Of a DNA stretch of 64,000 bases, positions 4,391 through 64,000 are shown in pieces (position 1 is the stretch's first letter; each line of letters opens with the position of its first letter). The position numbers and the translations under genes were made by a program. The DNA is from Tenacibaculum sp. SG-28 (lineage in GTDB: Bacteria > Bacteroidota > Bacteroidia > Flavobacteriales > Flavobacteriaceae): positions 291,690 to 355,689 of the forward strand of contig NZ_MQVY01000002.1 of assembly GCF_002954385.1 (NCBI RefSeq). The letters are read 5' to 3'. The notes under the pieces are model-generated. The model saw only the letters and a list, made by a program, of their open reading frames with translations, did no database searches and had not been told where the DNA came from.

Positions 4391-7144
4391 TTAAAATCTT
4401 ATATATACATTCATGAAATATGTGGTACCTCTGCCATACCAATATTTATTTCCAAAAACAGGTGTATCCAAATCAGCATCTGCTTTATCCGTTCTGTAAT
4501 TTGCATTTCTACCTTGTTCAAAACCTCCTGACTTGTACTTATGGTTTAAAATATTATTGATACTCGCGAAAAATCCAACATAATAATCCCCAATTTTCCA
4601 CGATTTCCCCCCTACGGCATTTACAACGACATAATTATCAAATTGTTCTTGTGCAAGTAATTCTCTTGCAATTTCTGGATCGTAGTCTGCAAATTGTTGT
4701 CCGTCTGAATCTAGCGCATAATTTTCTGTTCTCTTTAAAGGAGCAATATCTACATAGGTCTCGTCTAAATAATTGGCAGTTGCACCAATCCACCAATAAT
4801 CCGGATCGCGATATTCAAAACCAAAAGAATAGGATTTCTGTGGTCCTGAAGCTACTTTATAGTCTTTTAAATAACTTGTCGTTGGCATCAATGCAAAACC
4901 TGCATCAGAAGTTAAGTAAATATTAGGATTGTTATTATAGGTATACTGTCCAATATTTGCCGCACCGCGTAACTTTATCGTTGGTGTTACTTGTGCCTCT
5001 AAACCAATCTCTACACCAAAATGTTGCTTATCAACACCCGTTAATACTTCCTGAACAAAAGCACTACTATCTCCTCCTACACCATCCGCAAAGAAAAAGG
5101 AAATTTCAGTCGCATCTGAAATTCCTGTGTAGTATCCGGTAAGTTTTGCCTGAATAATCGGTGATCGTAAAATATAACTAGCATCAAATGCCATTACTTT
5201 CTCGCTTGTAATGTCTAAAACAACATCGTTGTTTTCACGTGGATTTGAGAATGAATTTCTTAGAGTAGGTGCTTTGGTTAAGTACCCTCCATTGAAATCT
5301 AATAAATGACGTCCTGAAATTTTATAGGTAAAACCGGCTTTTGCGCCAAAATTCGTAAAGTCTAACTTCTCTGATTTACCAAAAGAGGTATCAGCGAAAG
5401 AGCCGTTTTGGTATAAGCCCTCTCTTTGGTGTGTTGTTCTTGAAACATCTCCTGCAAGATAAAAATCAAATTTGTTGTATTTAAATTGTACCTGTAAAAA
5501 AGCGTTATAAATATCTGAATTAAAATCATAATTGTAAGCAAATCGATCGCCCTCAGTAACAATTCTATTGGGGTTTCTTAAGTCACTTTGCTTTTGCTCT
5601 TGTGTTGCTCCAAAAGTGTCTACATCCAGAAAACCAGAACCTCCTAATAAATCCAATACATTCGCAAAATTTTCCGACTTTACTTGCATGTATTGTACTT
5701 TACCATTTAAAGTTATATTATCATTTAGTTCAGAAGATACAATAACGTTTGCGGTAAGCTGCTTGCTATCGGTTCTATCTTCGTAAAGGATATATTTTGA
5801 ATTTGTGCTTTCTGTTCCAGAGAGGTTTTGACGAATCATTTCGTCCCAATCTAACTGTCCATCATTTAAAAACTGCTGTAATAATTCGTATTCGTTTCCA
5901 GTACCATTACCCAAAGCATAACTAGGTAGTTTTTGATAATAGGTTGGATCTGGATTAGAACCACCACCAATAGGAATACCATCCACCAATCGTGCCCCAT
6001 TATTGTTAATTCTACTGTTACCCATCTTTCCAAACTGGTACGAAAAATTGGAAGAAATCTCGGTGTTTTCCGAAACGTTCCAGTAGTGGTTTAACATAAT
6101 TATTGGTTCGTAAATGCTACGCACACGAGAATTTCTCATTTTTCCATTCTGATAGCCCCAGTACGGATTGTACTTGATATCCTTTAAATCGTAAACTTCT
6201 TGGGTGTTTGGAGAATTTTTACCCCTTTCATTTTCGGCCGCAATTAGCGTTAAATTCAAACTATGCTTGTCATTAAAAACCTTCTCCAATGAAGCAAATA
6301 TAGAATTCGCATCGTAAAAAGTTCCATCAACATAACCTTCATTACCAGATCTTCTACTTCCGGAAACTGCAACTGCCCATCCCTTCTCCATAAGTCCTGA
6401 AGTGTAGGTCCCCGTAATACGGTTAACATAACTTCTATTCGAAGCAGCATAAGATATTCTGGTTCCTTCACTATACTCCGATGCTCGTGTACTAATATTC
6501 GTAGATCCTAAAACACCGCCAAAAGTATAATTAGATGGGGTAAGCCCATTACTAAACTCTTGATTTCGTAAAACATCATTTAAACCACCCCAATTACTCC
6601 ATTGCGGGCGACCATTGTAGAGCTTATTCATCTCTACACCATTAATTAAAACTTTTCCATTCTCAGAATCTACTCCACGGATACGATAAAACGAACCGCC
6701 CCACTCAAAAGCAGCAGTTCTTAAATAAACGTCTCTTGATGCTTGCAACAAGCCAGATATATTGTCTGCTGCACTGGTATCATCATTTAATTCATCATCT
6801 GTAAGCGTAATCGTGCTTAAATCCTGATCTTCGGAGAGATCTTCGTACATCATAATAATGCCTAAATCAATAATTTCTCCTGACATTTGTACCGGAAAAT
6901 TTTGCATTTCATAACCTTCCAACGAAACCACTACAAATTGCCTTCCATTAGGTATATTATTTAATGTAAAAGCACCATTAAGATCTGTTAATACTGCAAT
7001 TTCATTGTCTTTAATACTAACAGAAACATTTTGTAAAGGATTTTCGGAATCGCCATTAATAACGATACCTTTTACAATTTTTTGGGCTCTCATACTCAAA
7101 CTAAGTACCAAAAACACAAACAATGTTTCTTTAAAATTTCTCAT
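4391..7144 (-). CDS. TonB-dependent outer membrane receptor with N-terminal carboxypeptidase-regulatory-like domain
   Basis: This 917-residue outer membrane protein should import a substrate using TonB energy. A signal peptide (residues about 1-20, ending in RAQ) precedes a carboxypeptidase-regulatory-like beta-sandwich (about 22-100; GIVINGDSENPLQNVSV and DLNGAFTLNNIPNG). Next come a plug domain (about 120-225; RIRGVDSENGKVLINGVEM, NWGGLNDVLRN, FGGVLGSTNIS) and a beta barrel ending in the aromatic residue of VYIRF. The downstream gene encodes its likely surface lipoprotein partner. A secreted EEP-type enzyme is divergently oriented. The pairing resembles SusC/SusD-like import systems, although the lipoprotein is DUF5689 rather than SusD. 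The substrate is unknown. Confidence 0.9.
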   Translation of the reverse strand: MRNFKETLFVFLVLSLSMRAQKIVKGIVINGDSENPLQNVSVSIKDNEIAVLTDLNGAFTLNNIPNGRQFVVVSLEGYEMQNFPVQMSGEIIDLGIIMMYEDLSEDQDLSTITLTDDELNDDTSAADNISGLLQASRDVYLRTAAFEWGGSFYRIRGVDSENGKVLINGVEMNKLYNGRPQWSNWGGLNDVLRNQEFSNGLTPSNYTFGGVLGSTNISTRASEYSEGTRISYAASNRSYVNRITGTYTSGLMEKGWAVAVSGSRRSGNEGYVDGTFYDANSIFASLEKVFNDKHSLNLTLIAAENERGKNSPNTQEVYDLKDIKYNPYWGYQNGKMRNSRVRSIYEPIIMLNHYWNVSENTEISSNFSYQFGKMGNSRINNNGARLVDGIPIGGGSNPDPTYYQKLPSYALGNGTGNEYELLQQFLNDGQLDWDEMIRQNLSGTESTNSKYILYEDRTDSKQLTANVIVSSELNDNITLNGKVQYMQVKSENFANVLDLLGGSGFLDVDTFGATQEQKQSDLRNPNRIVTEGDRFAYNYDFNSDIYNAFLQVQFKYNKFDFYLAGDVSRTTHQREGLYQNGSFADTSFGKSEKLDFTNFGAKAGFTYKISGRHLLDFNGGYLTKAPTLRNSFSNPRENNDVVLDITSEKVMAFDASYILRSPIIQAKLTGYYTGISDATEISFFFADGVGGDSSAFVQEVLTGVDKQHFGVEIGLEAQVTPTIKLRGAANIGQYTYNNNPNIYLTSDAGFALMPTTSYLKDYKVASGPQKSYSFGFEYRDPDYWWIGATANYLDETYVDIAPLKRTENYALDSDGQQFADYDPEIARELLAQEQFDNYVVVNAVGGKSWKIGDYYVGFFASINNILNHKYKSGGFEQGRNANYRTDKADADLDTPVFGNKYWYGRGTTYFMNVYIRF

Positions 7145-14357: not shown

Positions 14358-15349
14358 ATGAATTCTAAAATCGAAGTCATACATACACATTTTCATAACC
14401 GAAGAACAGGGGTTACACGAAGTATTGAAAACATAATTCCGTTTTTACAAAAATATTGTAACGTGCATTTATACGGCTATAGCATAGCGGGAAAAATACT
14501 TGGTAAAAAGAATTTTAAAAAAATTATTTTTTCAAAAAACACCTCTATAGTGCATTGTCACAGAAATAATGAAATTGTAAAAATGCTGTTTTTTAGACTA
14601 CTTGGAGCAAAATTTAAACTGGTTACAACCAGACATGCTGCAACAAAACCGTCTGCATTAACCTTATTTCTATTGCGAAAATCAGACGCCGTAGTCACGC
14701 TTACAAACGCCATGAGTGAGCAACTGCAAATGCCCAACAAAAAAATTCCGCACGGCGTAAATACAGACGTTTTTCAAAAAAAGACGTTACTATTTCTACT
14801 ATAACGGAGGAAAACTTTATTTTGTGTGCCGGAAGAATTCGAGAGGATAAAGGGCAAGAAATATTGGTAAAAGCAAGTATTGATCTTTTAAAAAATAATA
14901 AAAATTGGGCTCTAGCCATCGTAGGTAAAGTTGATGACTTCGAATTTTTAAAGGTACTGCAAGACCTAATAGTAAGGAACAGCATTTCCACTCAAGTATA
15001 TTTTATCGATGAAACTTTAGATATAGTCTCGTATTATCAAGCCTCTAAAATTGTAGTTGTTCCTTCCTTTACAGAAGGCTTTTCATTAGTATGCGCAGAA
15101 GCTATGGCCTGTGGAAAAACTGTAATAGCCACAAAAAATGTCGGAATTCATTCGCAAATTATACAAAACAGACACTCGGGGTATTTATTTGATGTGGGAA
15201 ATAGTCAAGAATTAGCGTCTATTTTAAAAGACTTAATCACTACTAAACTACCTTATGTCGGTATTAATGCTGAAAGTGAAATTAATAACAATTGGAGTTC
15301 CAAGATCGAAGCAAAGGCATTGTATAATTTGTACCGAGAACTCCTTTAA
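14358..15349 (+). CDS. GT-B family (GT4-like) glycosyltransferase (interrupted by one frameshift)
   Basis: This sugar transferase probably builds a surface glycan or glycolipid. The N-terminal half has VIHTHFHNRRTGVTRSIENI and VHCHRNNEIVK. The C-terminal half has the GT4 nucleotide-sugar region LCAGRIREDKGQEILV and the EX7E motif FTEGFSLVCAEAMACG. The frame breaks at a run of seven A (14776-14782); an eighth A joins QKK to DVTISTITEEN and then FILCAGRI without further stops. The repaired protein is about 330 residues, a little short but complete for a GT4 enzyme. It follows the acidic-linker gene without a gap. Acceptor and donor sugars are unknown. Confidence 0.82.
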
Positions 15350-30934: not shown

Positions 30935-31780
30935 ATGGATATTTTTAAAACAAAAACTGCTTTACGAGCTACTTTAACAAAATATAAAAAAGAGCATAAA
31001 ACTATTGGTTTTGTGCCTACGATGGGGGCCCTTCATGATGGCCACCTATCCCTTGTTAGAAAATCAAAAGAAGAAAATGACATAACTGTGGTTAGTATAT
31101 TTGTAAATCCTACGCAATTTGACAATAAAAAAGATTTAGAAAAATATCCAAAAACCTTTAATAAAGATTGCAATCTTCTCGAAAGTGTAGGTTGTGACAT
31201 TCTGTATTACCCAACTACTCAAGACATTTATGAAGGTGAATTGGCGGCGGAAAAATTCAGTTTTAATGGTTTAGAATTTCAAATGGAGGGTAAGCATAGA
31301 GAAGGACATTTTGATGGTGTTGGAACCATCGTGAAAAAATTGTTTAAAATAACCGAACCAAACAAGGCGTATTTCGGAAGAAAAAGATTTCAGCAATTGC
31401 AAATAGTAAAACAACTCGTAAACCAAGAAAAAATCCCTGTGACCATTAAAGGACAGCCTATTTTAAGGGAGAAAGATGGTTTGGCTATGAGCTCAAGAAA
31501 TGCTCGTTTAACTAGAGAACACCGAGAAATTGCGCCTTTGATATACAAAACTTTACAAGAGGTACAACAACGATTCCCTTACGAAACCATTCAAAATCTA
31601 AACCAATGGGTGCAGGAAGTTTTCGAAAAAGAACCATTATTGCAGTTGGAGTATTTTTGTATTGCGGATACAAGTAATTTACAGACAGTGCAAAAAAAAG
31701 AGCTCCATCAGAAGTACCGTGCTTTCATAGCAGTATTTGCGGGAGATATTCGACTGATAGACAATATTTCGCTTCAATAA
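30935..31780 (+). CDS. panC: Pantothenate synthetase
   Basis: PanC joins pantoate and beta-alanine using ATP to make pantothenate, the coenzyme A precursor. The 281-residue protein has the family motifs PTMGALHDGHLSLV (HIGH-type nucleotide-binding site), IFVNPTQF, FGRKRFQQLQIVKQL (equivalent to FGxKDxQQ), and AMSSRNARL. I choose the ATG at 30935, giving MDIFKTKTAL; a longer reading from 30902 would run through the -7 box. panD, which supplies beta-alanine, follows 48 bases later. Confidence 0.96.
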   Translation: MDIFKTKTALRATLTKYKKEHKTIGFVPTMGALHDGHLSLVRKSKEENDITVVSIFVNPTQFDNKKDLEKYPKTFNKDCNLLESVGCDILYYPTTQDIYEGELAAEKFSFNGLEFQMEGKHREGHFDGVGTIVKKLFKITEPNKAYFGRKRFQQLQIVKQLVNQEKIPVTIKGQPILREKDGLAMSSRNARLTREHREIAPLIYKTLQEVQQRFPYETIQNLNQWVQEVFEKEPLLQLEYFCIADTSNLQTVQKKELHQKYRAFIAVFAGDIRLIDNISLQ

Positions 31781-53087: not shown

Positions 53088-55899
53088 ATGCAATACAATC
53101 ATCAAGACATAGAGAAAAAATGGCAAGAGTTTTGGGCTAAAAACGAAACTTTTAAAACAGAGAACACCTCTGAAAAACCAAAATATTACGTACTAGATAT
53201 GTTTCCTTATCCTTCGGGTGCAGGATTACACGTTGGTCATCCGTTAGGATATATAGCGAGTGACATATATGCTAGGTACAAGCGTCATAAAGGTTTTAAT
53301 GTATTGCACCCACAAGGATATGACAGCTTTGGTTTACCTGCGGAACAATATGCTATCCAAACAGGGCAGCATCCCGCAGTAACTACAGAAACAAACATCA
53401 AAACTTACCGTAAACAACTAGATAAAATAGGGTTTTCCTTTGACTGGTCTCGAGAAGTTAGAACTTCAAATCCGGAGTACTACAAATGGACCCAATGGAT
53501 ATTTATCCAGTTATTTAATTCTTGGTATAACAAAGACAAAGATAGCGCGGAAGATATTTCTTCCTTAGTGGCCATATTTGAAAGTCGTGGAAATGAGGCT
53601 GTACATGCCGTATGTGACGAAGATTGTACTAGTTTCTCTGCAGAGGAATGGAAAAACTTTTCGGAGGAAAAACAACAAGGAATTCTTTTGCAATACCGTT
53701 TAACCTACCTGTCAGATACGGAAGTGAATTGGTGTCCTGAACTAGGAACAGTATTAGCAAACGATGAGATTGTTAATGGGGTATCGGAACGAGGTGGACA
53801 CCCGGTAGTACGAAAAAAATGAGGCAATGGTCGATGCGAATCACCGCCTATGCGCAGCGTTTACTTGATGGTTTACAAAACATAGACTGGCCACAACCTT
53901 TAAAAGATAGCCAAACCAATTGGATTGGTCGCTCCCAAGGTGCTATGGTAAGTTTTAAGGTAGACGGACACGATGCAACTATTGACGTATTTACGACCCG
54001 ACCTGATACTATTTATGGCGTTAGTTTTATGACACTAGCACCCGAACATGAATTGGTTGCAAAAATAACTTCAGAAGCACAAAAAGACGCAGTAGATGCC
54101 TATGTTACTGCCACTGCCAAGAGATCAGAAAGAGATAGAATGGCGGATGTGAAAACTATCTCTGGAGTAAATACAGGAGCCTTTGCTATCCATCCTTTTT
54201 CTGGGGCAAAAGTTCCTATTTGGATTGGTGATTATGTATTAGCAAGTTACGGAACAGGTGCGGTAATGGCAGTTCCTTGCGGAGACCAAAGGGATTATGA
54301 TTTTGCAAAACATTTTGATATTGGCATCCCGAATATATTTGAGGGCGTGGATATTTCAGAAACAGCATTTGCCGATAAAGAAAAGACCGTTCTGGCCAAT
54401 TCGGACTTTTTAAATGGTTTGTCTTATAAAAAAGCGATGAAAACCGTTATTTATGAAATGGAACAACGCGGTTTTGGTTACGGTAAAATAAATTATCGTT
54501 TACGAGATGCAGTATTTAGTCGCCAACGCTATTGGGGAGAACCATTTCCGGTGTATTATAAAAACGGAATGCCCCAAATGATTGCTTCCGAACATTTACC
54601 AATTGTTTTACCGGAAGTAGAAAAATATTTACCGACAGAAGACGGCAAACCTCCTTTAGGAAATGCCGATATGTGGGCATGGGATACCGCTACTAATACT
54701 GTAGTCGCAAACGAAGGTATAAACAATAATACTGTTTTCCCTCTAGAACTCAACACCATGCCAGGATGGGCAGGAAGTTCTTGGTATTTCAATCGTTATA
54801 TGGATGCCACAAACAATGGAGAATTTGTGAGCAAAGAAGCAGTTGGATATTGGAAAGAAGTAGATTTATATATTGGTGGCTCAGAACATGCAACAGGACA
54901 TTTACTATATGCACGTTTTGGCAAAAATTTTTATTCGATAGAGGATTGCTTCCCGTTGAGGAGTTTGCCAAAAAACTAATCAATCAAGGAATGATTCTTG
55001 GAACTTCAGCAATAGTATATCGCATAGCCGGAACCAACAAATATGTTTCTGCAGGTTTACGAGAGGCATATGAAACCGAAGAACTTCGTGTAGATGTAAA
55101 ATTGATAAATGCTTCCGATGAACTAGATATCGCAGCCCTTAAACAATGGCAACCACAATTTTCTAATGCTACCTTTGTACTAGAAGATGGTAAATACATT
55201 GTGGGAAGAGAGGTAGAAAAAATGTCGAAAAGATGGTTTAATGTGGTTAATCCGGATGATATTTGTGAGACATATGGTGCGGATAGTTTGCGATTATTCG
55301 AAATGTTTTTAGGTCCATTAGAACAATTCAAACCTTGGAAAACCTCAGGTATTTCAGGAGTTTATTCATTTTTAAAGAAACTTTGGAAGTTATATGTTGG
55401 TGAGGATGGTAGTAAAGCATCGGAAGATGCACCAAGTAAAGATAGTTTAAAAACCTTACATAAAACCATCAAAAAAGTAGAAGAAGATATCGAGAATTTC
55501 TCGTTTAATACCTCGGTTTCTACCTTTATGATTGCAGTAAACGAATTAACAGCGCAGCGATGTACCAGCAAGGCTATTTTAGAACCCTTATTAATATTGA
55601 TATCACCGTATGCACCCCATATAGCGGAGGAACTGTGGAGTCAACTAGGACATGGAAATTCTATTGCTACGGAAAAATTTCCGGTCTTTGAGGAAAAATA
55701 CTTAGTAGAGTCTGAGAAAGAGTATCCTGTTTCCTTTAATGGAAAAATGCGATTCAAGCTTAAACTTTCGTTAGATTTGAGTAAAGATGAAATCGAAAAA
55801 ACTGTAATGTCGCATGAAAAGACAGTACAACAGTTACAAGGAAGAACTCCAAAGAAAGTAATTATAGTTCCTGGAAAAATTATCAATATCGTAGGATAA
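53088..55899 (+). CDS. leuS: Leucyl-tRNA synthetase (interrupted by two frameshifts)
   Basis: LeuS attaches leucine to tRNA-Leu. The coding sequence is in three frames. One A added at 53813-53819 joins HPVVRKK to [18 protein letters not shown]. One T added at 54916-54919 joins HLLYARF to [19 protein letters not shown]. The repaired protein, about 937 residues, has the expected length and domains: HIGH-type [16 protein letters not shown] near residue 43, the editing domain ([25 protein letters not shown]), [12 protein letters not shown]-type catalytic core (written IGGSEHA here) and the KMSKS-like [10 protein letters not shown]. As leuS is essential, these breaks are almost certainly sequencing artefacts. 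A terminator follows. Confidence 0.93.
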
Positions 55900-62487: not shown

Positions 62488-62569
62488 GCGGGTGTGGTGG
62501 AATTGGTAGACACGCTAGACTTAGGATCTAGTGCCGCAAGGCGTGGGGGTTCGACTCCCTTCACCCGTA
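62488..62569 (+). tRNA. tRNA-Leu (anticodon TAG)
   Basis: The sequence folds as a class II tRNA. The acceptor is GCGGGTG with CACCCGT (one G-T pair). The D arm contains GGTGGAATTGGTAGAC. The anticodon stem is CTAGA/TCTAG with loop CTTAGGA, giving anticodon TAG for leucine codon CTA. There is a long variable arm (TGCCGCAAGGCG) and a T arm with GTTCGAC. The discriminator is A and CCA is not fully encoded. Confidence 0.97.
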
Positions 62570-62596
62570 CAAAGGCTTAAAAAGCCAGCATTAACA

Positions 62597-62678: not shown

Positions 62679-62848
62679 AATAGCACTACACCGATGCCAG
62701 AAAAAAATTGTAAAACAAGCGGCAAAAGTGTAAAAAAGTCTAAAATCGCAGATTTTATGCCTAACTATTCAAAAGTAAAAATTTTAATACCGAAAAAAAC
62801 TGTAAGTAGGAAGAAGGTAGCCGCGCTAGATATACATAATTAAATTTA

Positions 62849-63460
62849 TTAAAAAATAACTCCCAGACTTAATCCTACACCATTTGACTTAATAATATCA
62901 TCCGATGTACCAATTCCTTCATTAGTAAAGCTAACTGTTTTATGAGAATAAAAGATATCAAAGATAAGATGTAGGCGATTTCCAGCGTTAAATTTATAGC
63001 CAAAACCAAAGTTAAAAAGTACTCCTTTCCTTAATGTAGAATTATCTCCTCCAAGTTTTAACGTTGGCCCAATGTCAAGAAAAGAATAAAGAGAATTCTC
63101 TTCTTCAGAATGATATAAACGAGCATCTAAAAAAACAGGTAGAGTATTATAATTAGGAGTGTGATGTCCATCAAGGCCTACACCTATACCTAACGAAAAG
63201 TGGGGTGAAATAAAATAACCATTAATTGTTTGGATACTCCAAGCGTGAGCACCATTAGTATCTAAATCGGTAAATATGGTACCTTCACCTTTAATGAAGC
63301 GTTCTTGCCTCAAGCTACTCATTGAAATAAAGCTAACCTTTGTAATATTGAAGTATCCAATATTTTTACTGATATCAATTTGTTTGTTTTTTTGATTGTG
63401 GCTTTCTTGCCCCCATGAACTTATAGAAATAAAAACCAATAAGTATAAAATTTTTTTCAT
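62849..63460 (-). CDS. Outer membrane beta-barrel protein
   Basis: This 203-residue protein has a signal peptide (about 1-18, ending in SWGQ) and alternating hydrophobic/polar beta strands typical of a small outer membrane barrel: FSLGIGVGLDGHH, PVFLDARLYHSEEE, LYSFLDIGPTLKLGG, LFNFGFGYKFNAGNRLHLIFDIFYSH and the terminal strand GVGLSLGVIF ending in Phe. No functional family beyond that is recognisable. It lies between tRNA-Leu and an attC-like palindrome, in the same orientation as the next gene, so it may be a cassette-borne or accessory gene. Confidence 0.78.
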   Translation of the reverse strand: MKKILYLLVFISISSWGQESHNQKNKQIDISKNIGYFNITKVSFISMSSLRQERFIKGEGTIFTDLDTNGAHAWSIQTINGYFISPHFSLGIGVGLDGHHTPNYNTLPVFLDARLYHSEEENSLYSFLDIGPTLKLGGDNSTLRKGVLFNFGFGYKFNAGNRLHLIFDIFYSHKTVSFTNEGIGTSDDIIKSNGVGLSLGVIF

Positions 63461-63517
63461 GTTAATTTTTATTAAATTATCTATTCAATTCATTTGCTTT
63501 GTTTTTGTCAAACTAAA

Positions 63518-63651
63518 ACACAACGGTTTGTCTAATGTTAGTTGCGTGGTTAAGCAACTTAATTAGTAAACAAATACGAACCTGAAAAAATTCCCAAGGA
63601 ATTTTCCAAATAAGCACTTACCAAAGCAATAAATTATACACGGTGTTGTGC
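63518..63651 (-). repeat. 134-base imperfect palindrome resembling an integron attC site
   Basis: The ends read GCACAAC and GTTGTGT on the minus strand, matching each other as inverted repeats and resembling the R''/R' boxes of attC (RYYYAAC and GTTRRRY) with one mismatch each. The inner arms are also inversely complementary: TAATGTTAGTTGC with TAATTTATTGC, and GTGGTTAAG with TTTGGTAAG. The element sits between the stop of one gene and the start of the next, both on the minus strand, as expected for cassettes. No integrase is in view, so the assignment is tentative. Confidence 0.4.
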
Positions 63652-63658
63652 AAGGTTT

Positions 63659-64000
63659 TTATAGTTCAATGAGTAACGTAATTCCGACTGAATTTAAGTT
63701 TTTCATTTTCTGTTCGTCATTTATTCCAACATTATTATTTGACTCAAATTTGCTTAAGTCAGATTGTCCGGTATAATTTATTCCAGCATAATAATTATTA
63801 AATATCTCATATAAAAAGCCAAGTCCAATTTGTGCTCCAAAATTCCAACTATCATAAACGTCTTTTTGAGTATTATTTAGAAAACGATATTCGTCTTTAA
63901 TTATGTTCTGTCCGTAAAATCCTAAATTAGCAAATACCCTAAAATTTTCATACAATTTAGAACCCACAGTAAATAATAATGGGACTTTTAACAATGTTCT
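63659..64000 (-). CDS. Outer membrane beta-barrel protein (5' part outside the window)
   Basis: The frame stays open to the right edge, so only the last 113 codons are seen. They read as barrel strands (FTVGSKLYENFRVFANLGFYGQ, FGAQIGLGFLYEIFNNYYAGINYTGQSDL) ending in VGITLLIEL. This is the porin-like/OmpA-type outer membrane beta-barrel pattern common in Bacteroidota. A TTG at 63994 is not the real start. Function unknown. It is followed by the attC-like palindrome. Confidence 0.72.
   Translation of the reverse strand, partial: RTLLKVPLLFTVGSKLYENFRVFANLGFYGQNIIKDEYRFLNNTQKDVYDSWNFGAQIGLGFLYEIFNNYYAGINYTGQSDLSKFESNNNVGINDEQKMKNLNSVGITLLIEL

Follow-up and report, generated by a model that had tools for sequence, protein, structure and literature searches.

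An attC-type site closing a gene-cassette array in Tenacibaculum sp. SG-28, and the integrases without helix I2 that accompany such arrays

Integrons and the palindrome in the window

Each integron cassette brings its own two complementary box halves, and the site seen in an array is a hybrid of two cassettes. According to the available part of one account, helix I2 is the innovation that gave integron integrases single-strand recombination, and it is necessary for cassette capture (PMC7790495). The accessible text of Smyshlyaev et al. (2021) likewise describes the insertion as essential for integron function (PMC8138268), and extrahelical bases (EHBs) are located, in an excerpted source, on the R''-L'' arm of attC, where they mark the folded bottom strand (PMC2727003). 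Integrons are known from Bacteroidota, as far as the partial texts go (PMC8618304, PMC9668308); for the Bacteroidetes proper, the available portion of the IntegronFinder 2.0 paper mentions earlier In0 elements and a single complete integron, that of Salinibacter ruber (PMC9024848). In the literature searched, which did not extend to preprints or most subscription journals, no account was found of integrons in flavobacteria whose integrases lack I2. Such a class has probably been missed so far because both its integrase and its sites depart from the usual models.

The DNA analyzed here, referred to as the window, is a 64,000-nucleotide stretch of Tenacibaculum sp. SG-28 (C2:291690-355689), the genome of which comprises 2.80 Mb in 17 contigs and is 93% complete. 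A sequence-only reading of the window had proposed an attC-like palindrome with inverted terminal boxes at 63518-63651. The boxes lie exactly there on the + strand (ACACAAC, 63518-63524; GTTGTGC, 63645-63651; read directly from the sequence), and a covariance model (R2), trained on 122 sites of other genomes without that of the window, matches the element with 73.2 bits (E 7.6e-15) and has no second match in the 64-kb window at E <= 10. A further model (R1), whose training set included the window site, gives 88.3 bits, and neither model finds any other site in the window. The palindrome is real, and it is an attC-type cassette recombination site. The covariance check that had been suggested came out in its favor with both models. 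The integrases of this genome are not canonical IntI, and the site is therefore not assigned to the canonical attC/IntI class. Read in the + orientation, the site scores only 18.8 bits (+ strand) against 88.3, and that reading was rejected. An Rfam identity was likewise discarded, as the palindrome has no match at gathering scores and the window search returned only a tRNA. Single-sequence folding energies alone are weak and unremarkable (z -1.79 for the + strand, -1.82 for the - strand); the minimum-energy fold is the predicted long hairpin on the + strand, which is the bottom strand in the cassette sense, and not on the minus strand.

The sense orientation of the site is the minus strand, the same as that of both flanking genes. 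Its core, AAC...GTT (126 nt; 63522..63647, delimited with R1, R2, and a 28-site alignment), consists of a 3-bp R stem plus an A.C, a short unpaired spacer, an L helix of ~16 bp, which has several mismatches in this copy, and a variable loop. Comparison of the flanks distinguishes an outer left arm on the minus strand, CTTGCAC, preceding AAC (63648..63654). With one further base, this arm is complementary at 6 of 8 positions to the first bases of the cassette to which it belongs, GTTGTGCAACA, which follow the next upstream site, C2:356004. The outer right flank after GTT, GTGTTTT (63515..63521, minus strand), matches the left flank of the same site at only 3 of 8 bases and by this reading is part of the downstream gene.

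The cassette gene occupies 63659..64000 on the minus strand with its 3' part (full gene C2:355348-355974 from an MKKSN start, ~208 aa), and its stop codon ends 11 bases ahead of AAC. By eye, its product has a signal peptide and an outer-membrane nature; a Pfam search gave no match. The gene after the last site, at 62849..63460 on the minus strand, encodes a 203-aa outer-membrane beta-barrel-like protein (PF13505, E 0.0088, below its cut-off). No attC was found after this gene, and therefore the array ends there. A tRNA-Leu gene lies at 62488-62570 (+), 0.28 kb past the last array gene, and the array end may belong to a tRNA-linked island. Elsewhere in the window, a leucyl-tRNA synthetase (named by eye; 53088-55899, +) is split into three overlapping frames (53088-53822, 53819-54979, and 54766-55899), as from frameshifts or assembly errors; outside the window, a Xer-like gene at C1:611520-612405 is likewise split.

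In genome coordinates the site lies at C2:355,211 and is the last of a short run, which continues with the site at C2:356004 and a third, decayed site near C2:360066 that was found by nhmmer only and missed by R1 and R2. A DNA search with the palindrome gave 12 places in the genome, and iterated nhmmer on stretches of the same genome gave 38 sites on C2, C3, C4, C7, and C8, each run in a single orientation; R1 adds one site, on C1. Arrays of related sites occur on at least five contigs, and the further copies between neighboring genes that were to be sought beyond position 64000 are present. A strict pattern, ACAACG..CGTTGT, was tried as the site definition and found three stretches only; it missed sites found by nhmmer because the outer bases vary from cassette to cassette. 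These data support the reading of the window palindrome as the attC-type site at the end of a cassette array. Short sites of the same type (44-59 nt) share arrays with the ~125-nt sites at L021:12225-12283, L027:16150-16208, and L024:10619-10675.

Cassette ends, strand asymmetry, and traces of movement

In the Tenacibaculum genome, 14 neighboring pairs of sites less than 1.7 kb apart were compared (28 of the 38 sites were used; seven had no clear core and three were badly delimited). The start of a cassette matches the complement of its own end at 5.36 of 8 bases (p<=5e-5), vs. 2.93/8 within a site and 2.78/8 after permutation. For 74 pairs from other genomes, the mean is 6.59/8, with controls of 2.78/8 within sites (116 sites) and 2.62 +- 0.18 when permuted. 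Within a cassette, the seven bases that follow GTT are complementary, although their sequence is little constrained; position 8 matches in 3%, most of the listed pairs opposing A to C there, and pairing resumes at positions 9 and 10. The cassettes stand in tandem and share one orientation, and each has mostly a single gene and a palindromic attC: among 77 cassettes shorter than 1.5 kb, the longest ORF runs along the site orientation in 58 and opposite to it in 2, and 17 contain no ORF of 150 nt (median, 678 nt). AAC...GTT is read by 116 of the 122 sites, and the full R box (RYYYAAC / GTTRRRY) is present in 7 of these 116, so that the departure of the end boxes from GTTRRRY, which had been noted for the window site, is the rule in this site family. 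A related stretch with an ORF resembling, by eye, an IS3-type transposase subunit is found at L028:4637-5057, L086:1466-1889 and 5625-6048, and L101:16339-16745. In all four places it starts ~10 nt past the GTT end of an attC-type site, and it would be either a transposon carried as a cassette or a transposon that targets these sites.

The two strands of the sites differ in pairing. Across 28 sites of the Tenacibaculum genome, 79.6% of the helix cells pair on the top strand and 95.9% on the bottom strand, with 94 cells that are A.C on top (G.T below) vs. 3 of the reverse; on the top strand, the covariation score is 0.306 vs. 0.098 when shuffled, and slid structures are 26-38% paired. The 122 sites from other genomes, which R1 matched at E<=1e-6 in 32 loci selected around integrases, pair at 97.7% on the bottom strand vs. 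80.9% on the top, in an alignment that was fitted to R1, so that the pair counts lean towards the structure. Leaving aside three conserved A.C columns, there are 73 bottom-only vs. 7 top-only wobbles (binomial p 6e-15, among sites that are related). The bottom-strand fold of attC is favored. The arms are 16/16 in 90 of the 122 sites, and 29 have an extra base on the 3' arm, which is the arm opposite to that of the published EHBs. Most sites (90/122) are without extrahelical bases of the kind that I2 docks.

Duplicated blocks between array loci (at least 250 bp and at least 90% identity; n = 21, with 6 further blocks in array-free loci) comprise a gene plus its site. CGTT lies within 10 nt of the block ends in both copies at both ends of 5 blocks, at one end of 9, and at neither end of 7; by scripted count, this amounts to 19 of 42 ends, compared to 5.3% for a random position. 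For instance, L073 contains an 849-bp, 100% match with GTT at either end, one copy of which adjoins attI directly, and the Tenacibaculum genome has CGTT-bounded duplicates of 592 bp (98.8%) and 534 bp (96.4%). Other blocks lack such boundaries, namely those of L083 (1877 bp), L086 (1470 bp), and L089 (1259 bp). One gene cassette is present at ~90% identity in this genome, in G034, and in Algibacter onchidii, with different upstream neighbors. Its similarity starts exactly at GTT, the first 60 columns from GTT being 88-95% alike and the preceding 60 being 46-52% alike. The attC body of this cassette is less well conserved than gene and start, and in another copy in the Tenacibaculum genome it is short and quite different. 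Movement of the attC body together with the upstream gene is favored by 9 of 12 pairs, which is not significant (p 0.15). Own-end complementarity, CGTT-bounded blocks, and bottom-strand pairing all point to cassette mobility.

Integrases, attI, and distribution

The sequence-only reading had suspected an array without a nearby integrase, and this is borne out: the array in the window has no adjacent integrase, and a whole-genome search gave only weak recombinase matches on C2, at C2:107,840 and C2:695,238. The genome search for IntI that it had also called for gave, on C4 and C3, integrases with attI and arrays that lack I2 and are not canonical IntI. These are two paralogous tyrosine recombinases of 293 aa that are 92% identical (C4:219872-220753 and C3:15443-16324). 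Downstream of each gene lies a same-strand array; on C3, the gene and its first sites are separated by an assembly gap (N). Both genes are followed by ~45 nearly identical bp, up to ..CAATA, and the sequences diverge at GTT, where the BLAST match ends. The first C4 cassette starts with GTTGTAAAAC and ends with the exact complement of this sequence. An attI-type junction, in which GTT is accompanied by 5 or more of the 7 expected bases no further than ~130 bp from the integrase stop, is present at 15 of the 24 loci that have sites downstream on the same strand, and 9 of these junctions have 7/7 bases; shuffled controls give a mean of 2.76 and a maximum of 8. By the paralog divergence and by this excess, an attI lies beside the integrase, and cassettes are joined at its GTT. 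The predicted attI of L096, L101, L105, L087, and L076 have, by eye, a near-perfect AT-rich inverted repeat with arms of ~10 bp, 5-6 nt ahead of GTT, the sequence of which varies among genomes while its symmetry is kept.

Twenty integrase loci were taken from family genomes, 12 of them named before any site had been seen and 8 added with sites in view. Of the 12 chosen blind, 7 have downstream same-strand sites, 2 have opposite-strand sites (L078, L081), and L072, L074, and L079 have no R1 site at E<=0.01, L072 ending 0.9 kb past the gene. All 8 later-chosen loci have downstream same-strand sites, which in most cases were already known near the gene. Eighty loci were found via integrase similarity in named genomes; R1 matches (E<=0.01) occur in 12, 11 of them downstream on the same strand, and the remaining 68 have none at that threshold, in a set that includes distant relatives, other phyla, and short contigs. 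In L078 and L081, whose integrases (272-277 aa) belong to another clade, the opposite-strand array precedes the 5' end of the gene, which is the arrangement of classical divergent integrons.

Between the lysine motif and HxLRH, both Tenacibaculum integrases have 58 residues and the 27 array-associated proteins have 58-61, vs. 99-100 in 7 canonical IntI from other phyla; the ~41-residue insertion that bears helix I2 is absent from 27/27 array-associated recombinases measured. The TIGR02249 alignment of the Tenacibaculum integrases covers only residues 3-178 and 239/240-313, and the match to IntI4 splits into two stretches around the lysine-HxLRH region. An AlphaFold model (pLDDT 84) has a recombinase fold with no helix of at least 4 residues between H185-198 and H215-228, and neither integrase has the IntI-specific additional domain with helix I2. 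Structural matches include 5hxy_F (XerA; Z 24.4, rmsd 13.6, 251 aligned) and 2a3v_C (IntI4; Z 22.6, rmsd 3.8, 269 aligned). The best NCBIfam match is NF040815, described as 'site-specific tyrosine recombinase/integron integrase' (204.5 bits, cut-off 220). In a tree built by a quick method from a thinned set of 105 with SH-aLRT support only, one clade (99) unites the seven IntI that bear I2, and the array-associated proteins fall in other clades; backbone support does not suffice to tell gain of I2 from its loss. The integrases of the sampled family are intermingled with those of Winogradskyella, Algibacter, Seonamhaeicola, and Zunongwangia, which points to Flavobacteriaceae as this family. Many array-associated integrases have an additional N-terminal part of 80-100 aa or longer (L082, L084-L091, L101, L105, L108), which in the predicted model of L082 is an alpha/beta domain. 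An N-terminal domain like the HARP domain of annealing helicases was considered for the ~380-aa integrases and set aside: PF07443 matches 1 of 16 (E 6.5e-5; 22.8 bits, cut-off 25), the N-terminal profile has no credible PDB relative, and recombinases lead among the 50 matches listed for the whole long integrase model, leaving HARP as a hint only.

Sites matching R1 (E<=0.01) are present in 134 of 149 sampled genomes of the family, including that of the window, and at E<=1e-4 in 38 of 149 genomes drawn from the class, this genome and one congener included. In 7 canonical-integron genomes R1 has no match, which is a weak negative. The integrase (E<=1e-60) is found in 75 of the 149 family genomes, 74 of which have R1 sites, vs. 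60 of the 74 others (Fisher p 2.6e-4); these 60 have sites and no integrase match at that strict cut-off. Twelve of the 15 site-free genomes are under 2 Mb, and genome size may therefore contribute. Canonical IntI (TIGR02249, E<=1e-60) is found in none of the 149, and the 7 positive controls all score above the cut-off.

Interpretation and relation to known systems

In the reading preferred here, which is given a probability of about 0.8, the arrays belong to a cassette system with an I2-less integrase, and the window element would be the final attC-type site of a sedentary gene-cassette array. Judging from site structure and cassette ends, cassettes would leave and enter the arrays as circles, through recombination at the site's GTT, and the substrate would be the bottom strand, folded into a hairpin as in integrons. 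The most likely enzyme is the tyrosine recombinase encoded upstream of the arrays on C4 and C3. From its location, the attI junction, and the missing insertion, this integrase may insert cassettes at the adjacent attI without I2. Strand choice could be set by the conserved A.C mismatches of the top strand and G.T wobbles of the bottom strand, which would replace extrahelical bases. Activity of an I2-less integrase on attI and attC is suggested here by sequence comparison.

The same sites might instead be ordinary attC sites in arrays without an integrase (CALIN), moved in trans by an I2-bearing IntI from a phage, a plasmid, or other strains, with the I2-less recombinases having another job. 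Such an explanation agrees with the description of I2 as necessary for cassette capture (PMC7790495, in part), and in the available text of PMC9892861, IntI1 recombined the bottom strand of Polaribacter phage P12002L_attC2, and the top strand yielded no recombinants; the two sites that R1 finds in this phage need not include the published attC2. It is nonetheless unlikely, as canonical IntI is found in 0/149 family genomes, an I2-less gene with a predicted attI lies directly upstream of many arrays, and the sequences after the two Tenacibaculum paralogs diverge exactly at GTT. An AT-rich palindrome in many copies, some of them decayed, would also suit an intergenic repeat of a MITE or REP-like kind, spreading between genes without being a recombination site. 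This is already contradicted, and scarcely credible, because complementarity links the two ends of a cassette and not the two ends of one element, the duplicated blocks hold gene plus site, and the ORFs of the 77 cassettes are oriented 58 to 2. A position between stop codon and next start, with both strands foldable, could finally indicate a transcription terminator or a palindromic intergenic RNA between same-strand genes; with no Rfam match at gathering scores, nothing terminator-like in 62800-64000, and wobble pairs that favor the strand complementary to the transcript, this too is already very unlikely.

Beyond the cassette system with an I2-less integrase, the evidence leans, with less assurance, towards a separate and very large integron lineage in Bacteroidota, ancestral or independently invented, with hairpin recombination that is I2-less and mostly EHB-less and a strand choice coded by wobbles. 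If such an I2-less integron family is true, the published I2 account becomes directly testable, and a large cassette reservoir is revealed.

Several described systems lie close to this one. Housekeeping XerC/XerD, the chromosome-dimer resolvase, is single-copy. The short integrase is like XerA/XerC/XerD (NF040815, TIGR02224/02225) in size and fold, but it is not the XerC/XerD of its host, which has two integrase paralogs beside arrays and separate Xer-like genes (C3:30807-31685 and C1:611701-612405); no R2 site at E<=0.001 was found in the 19-20 kb around these genes (L022, L029). The CALIN of Polaribacter phage P12002L is similar in that R1 sites are found in the phage (E 1.1e-10 and 8.9e-5), and it differs in consisting of phage copies for which no integrase is reported in the accessible part of PMC9892861. 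The sites in this lytic phage (L092, NC_028924) lie at 14503-14624 (-) and 31118-31313 (+), the second among DNA methyltransferase genes. For the insertion-less members of the 'Integron-like' subgroup, the available text of Smyshlyaev et al. (2021; PMC8138268) gives no attC arrays or function. Like the integrons of V. cholerae IntI4 (2A3V) and of class 1 IntI1, the present system has one-orientation arrays of mostly single-gene cassettes, and it shares with IntI integrons an attI beside the integrase, GTT junctions, a favored bottom-strand hairpin, and a tyrosine recombinase core. Unlike them, it has an integrase without the ~41-residue I2 insertion (TIGR02249, 0/149) and sites in which GTTRRRY is rare (7/116), extrahelical bases are mostly absent, and bottom-strand G.T wobbles are conserved.
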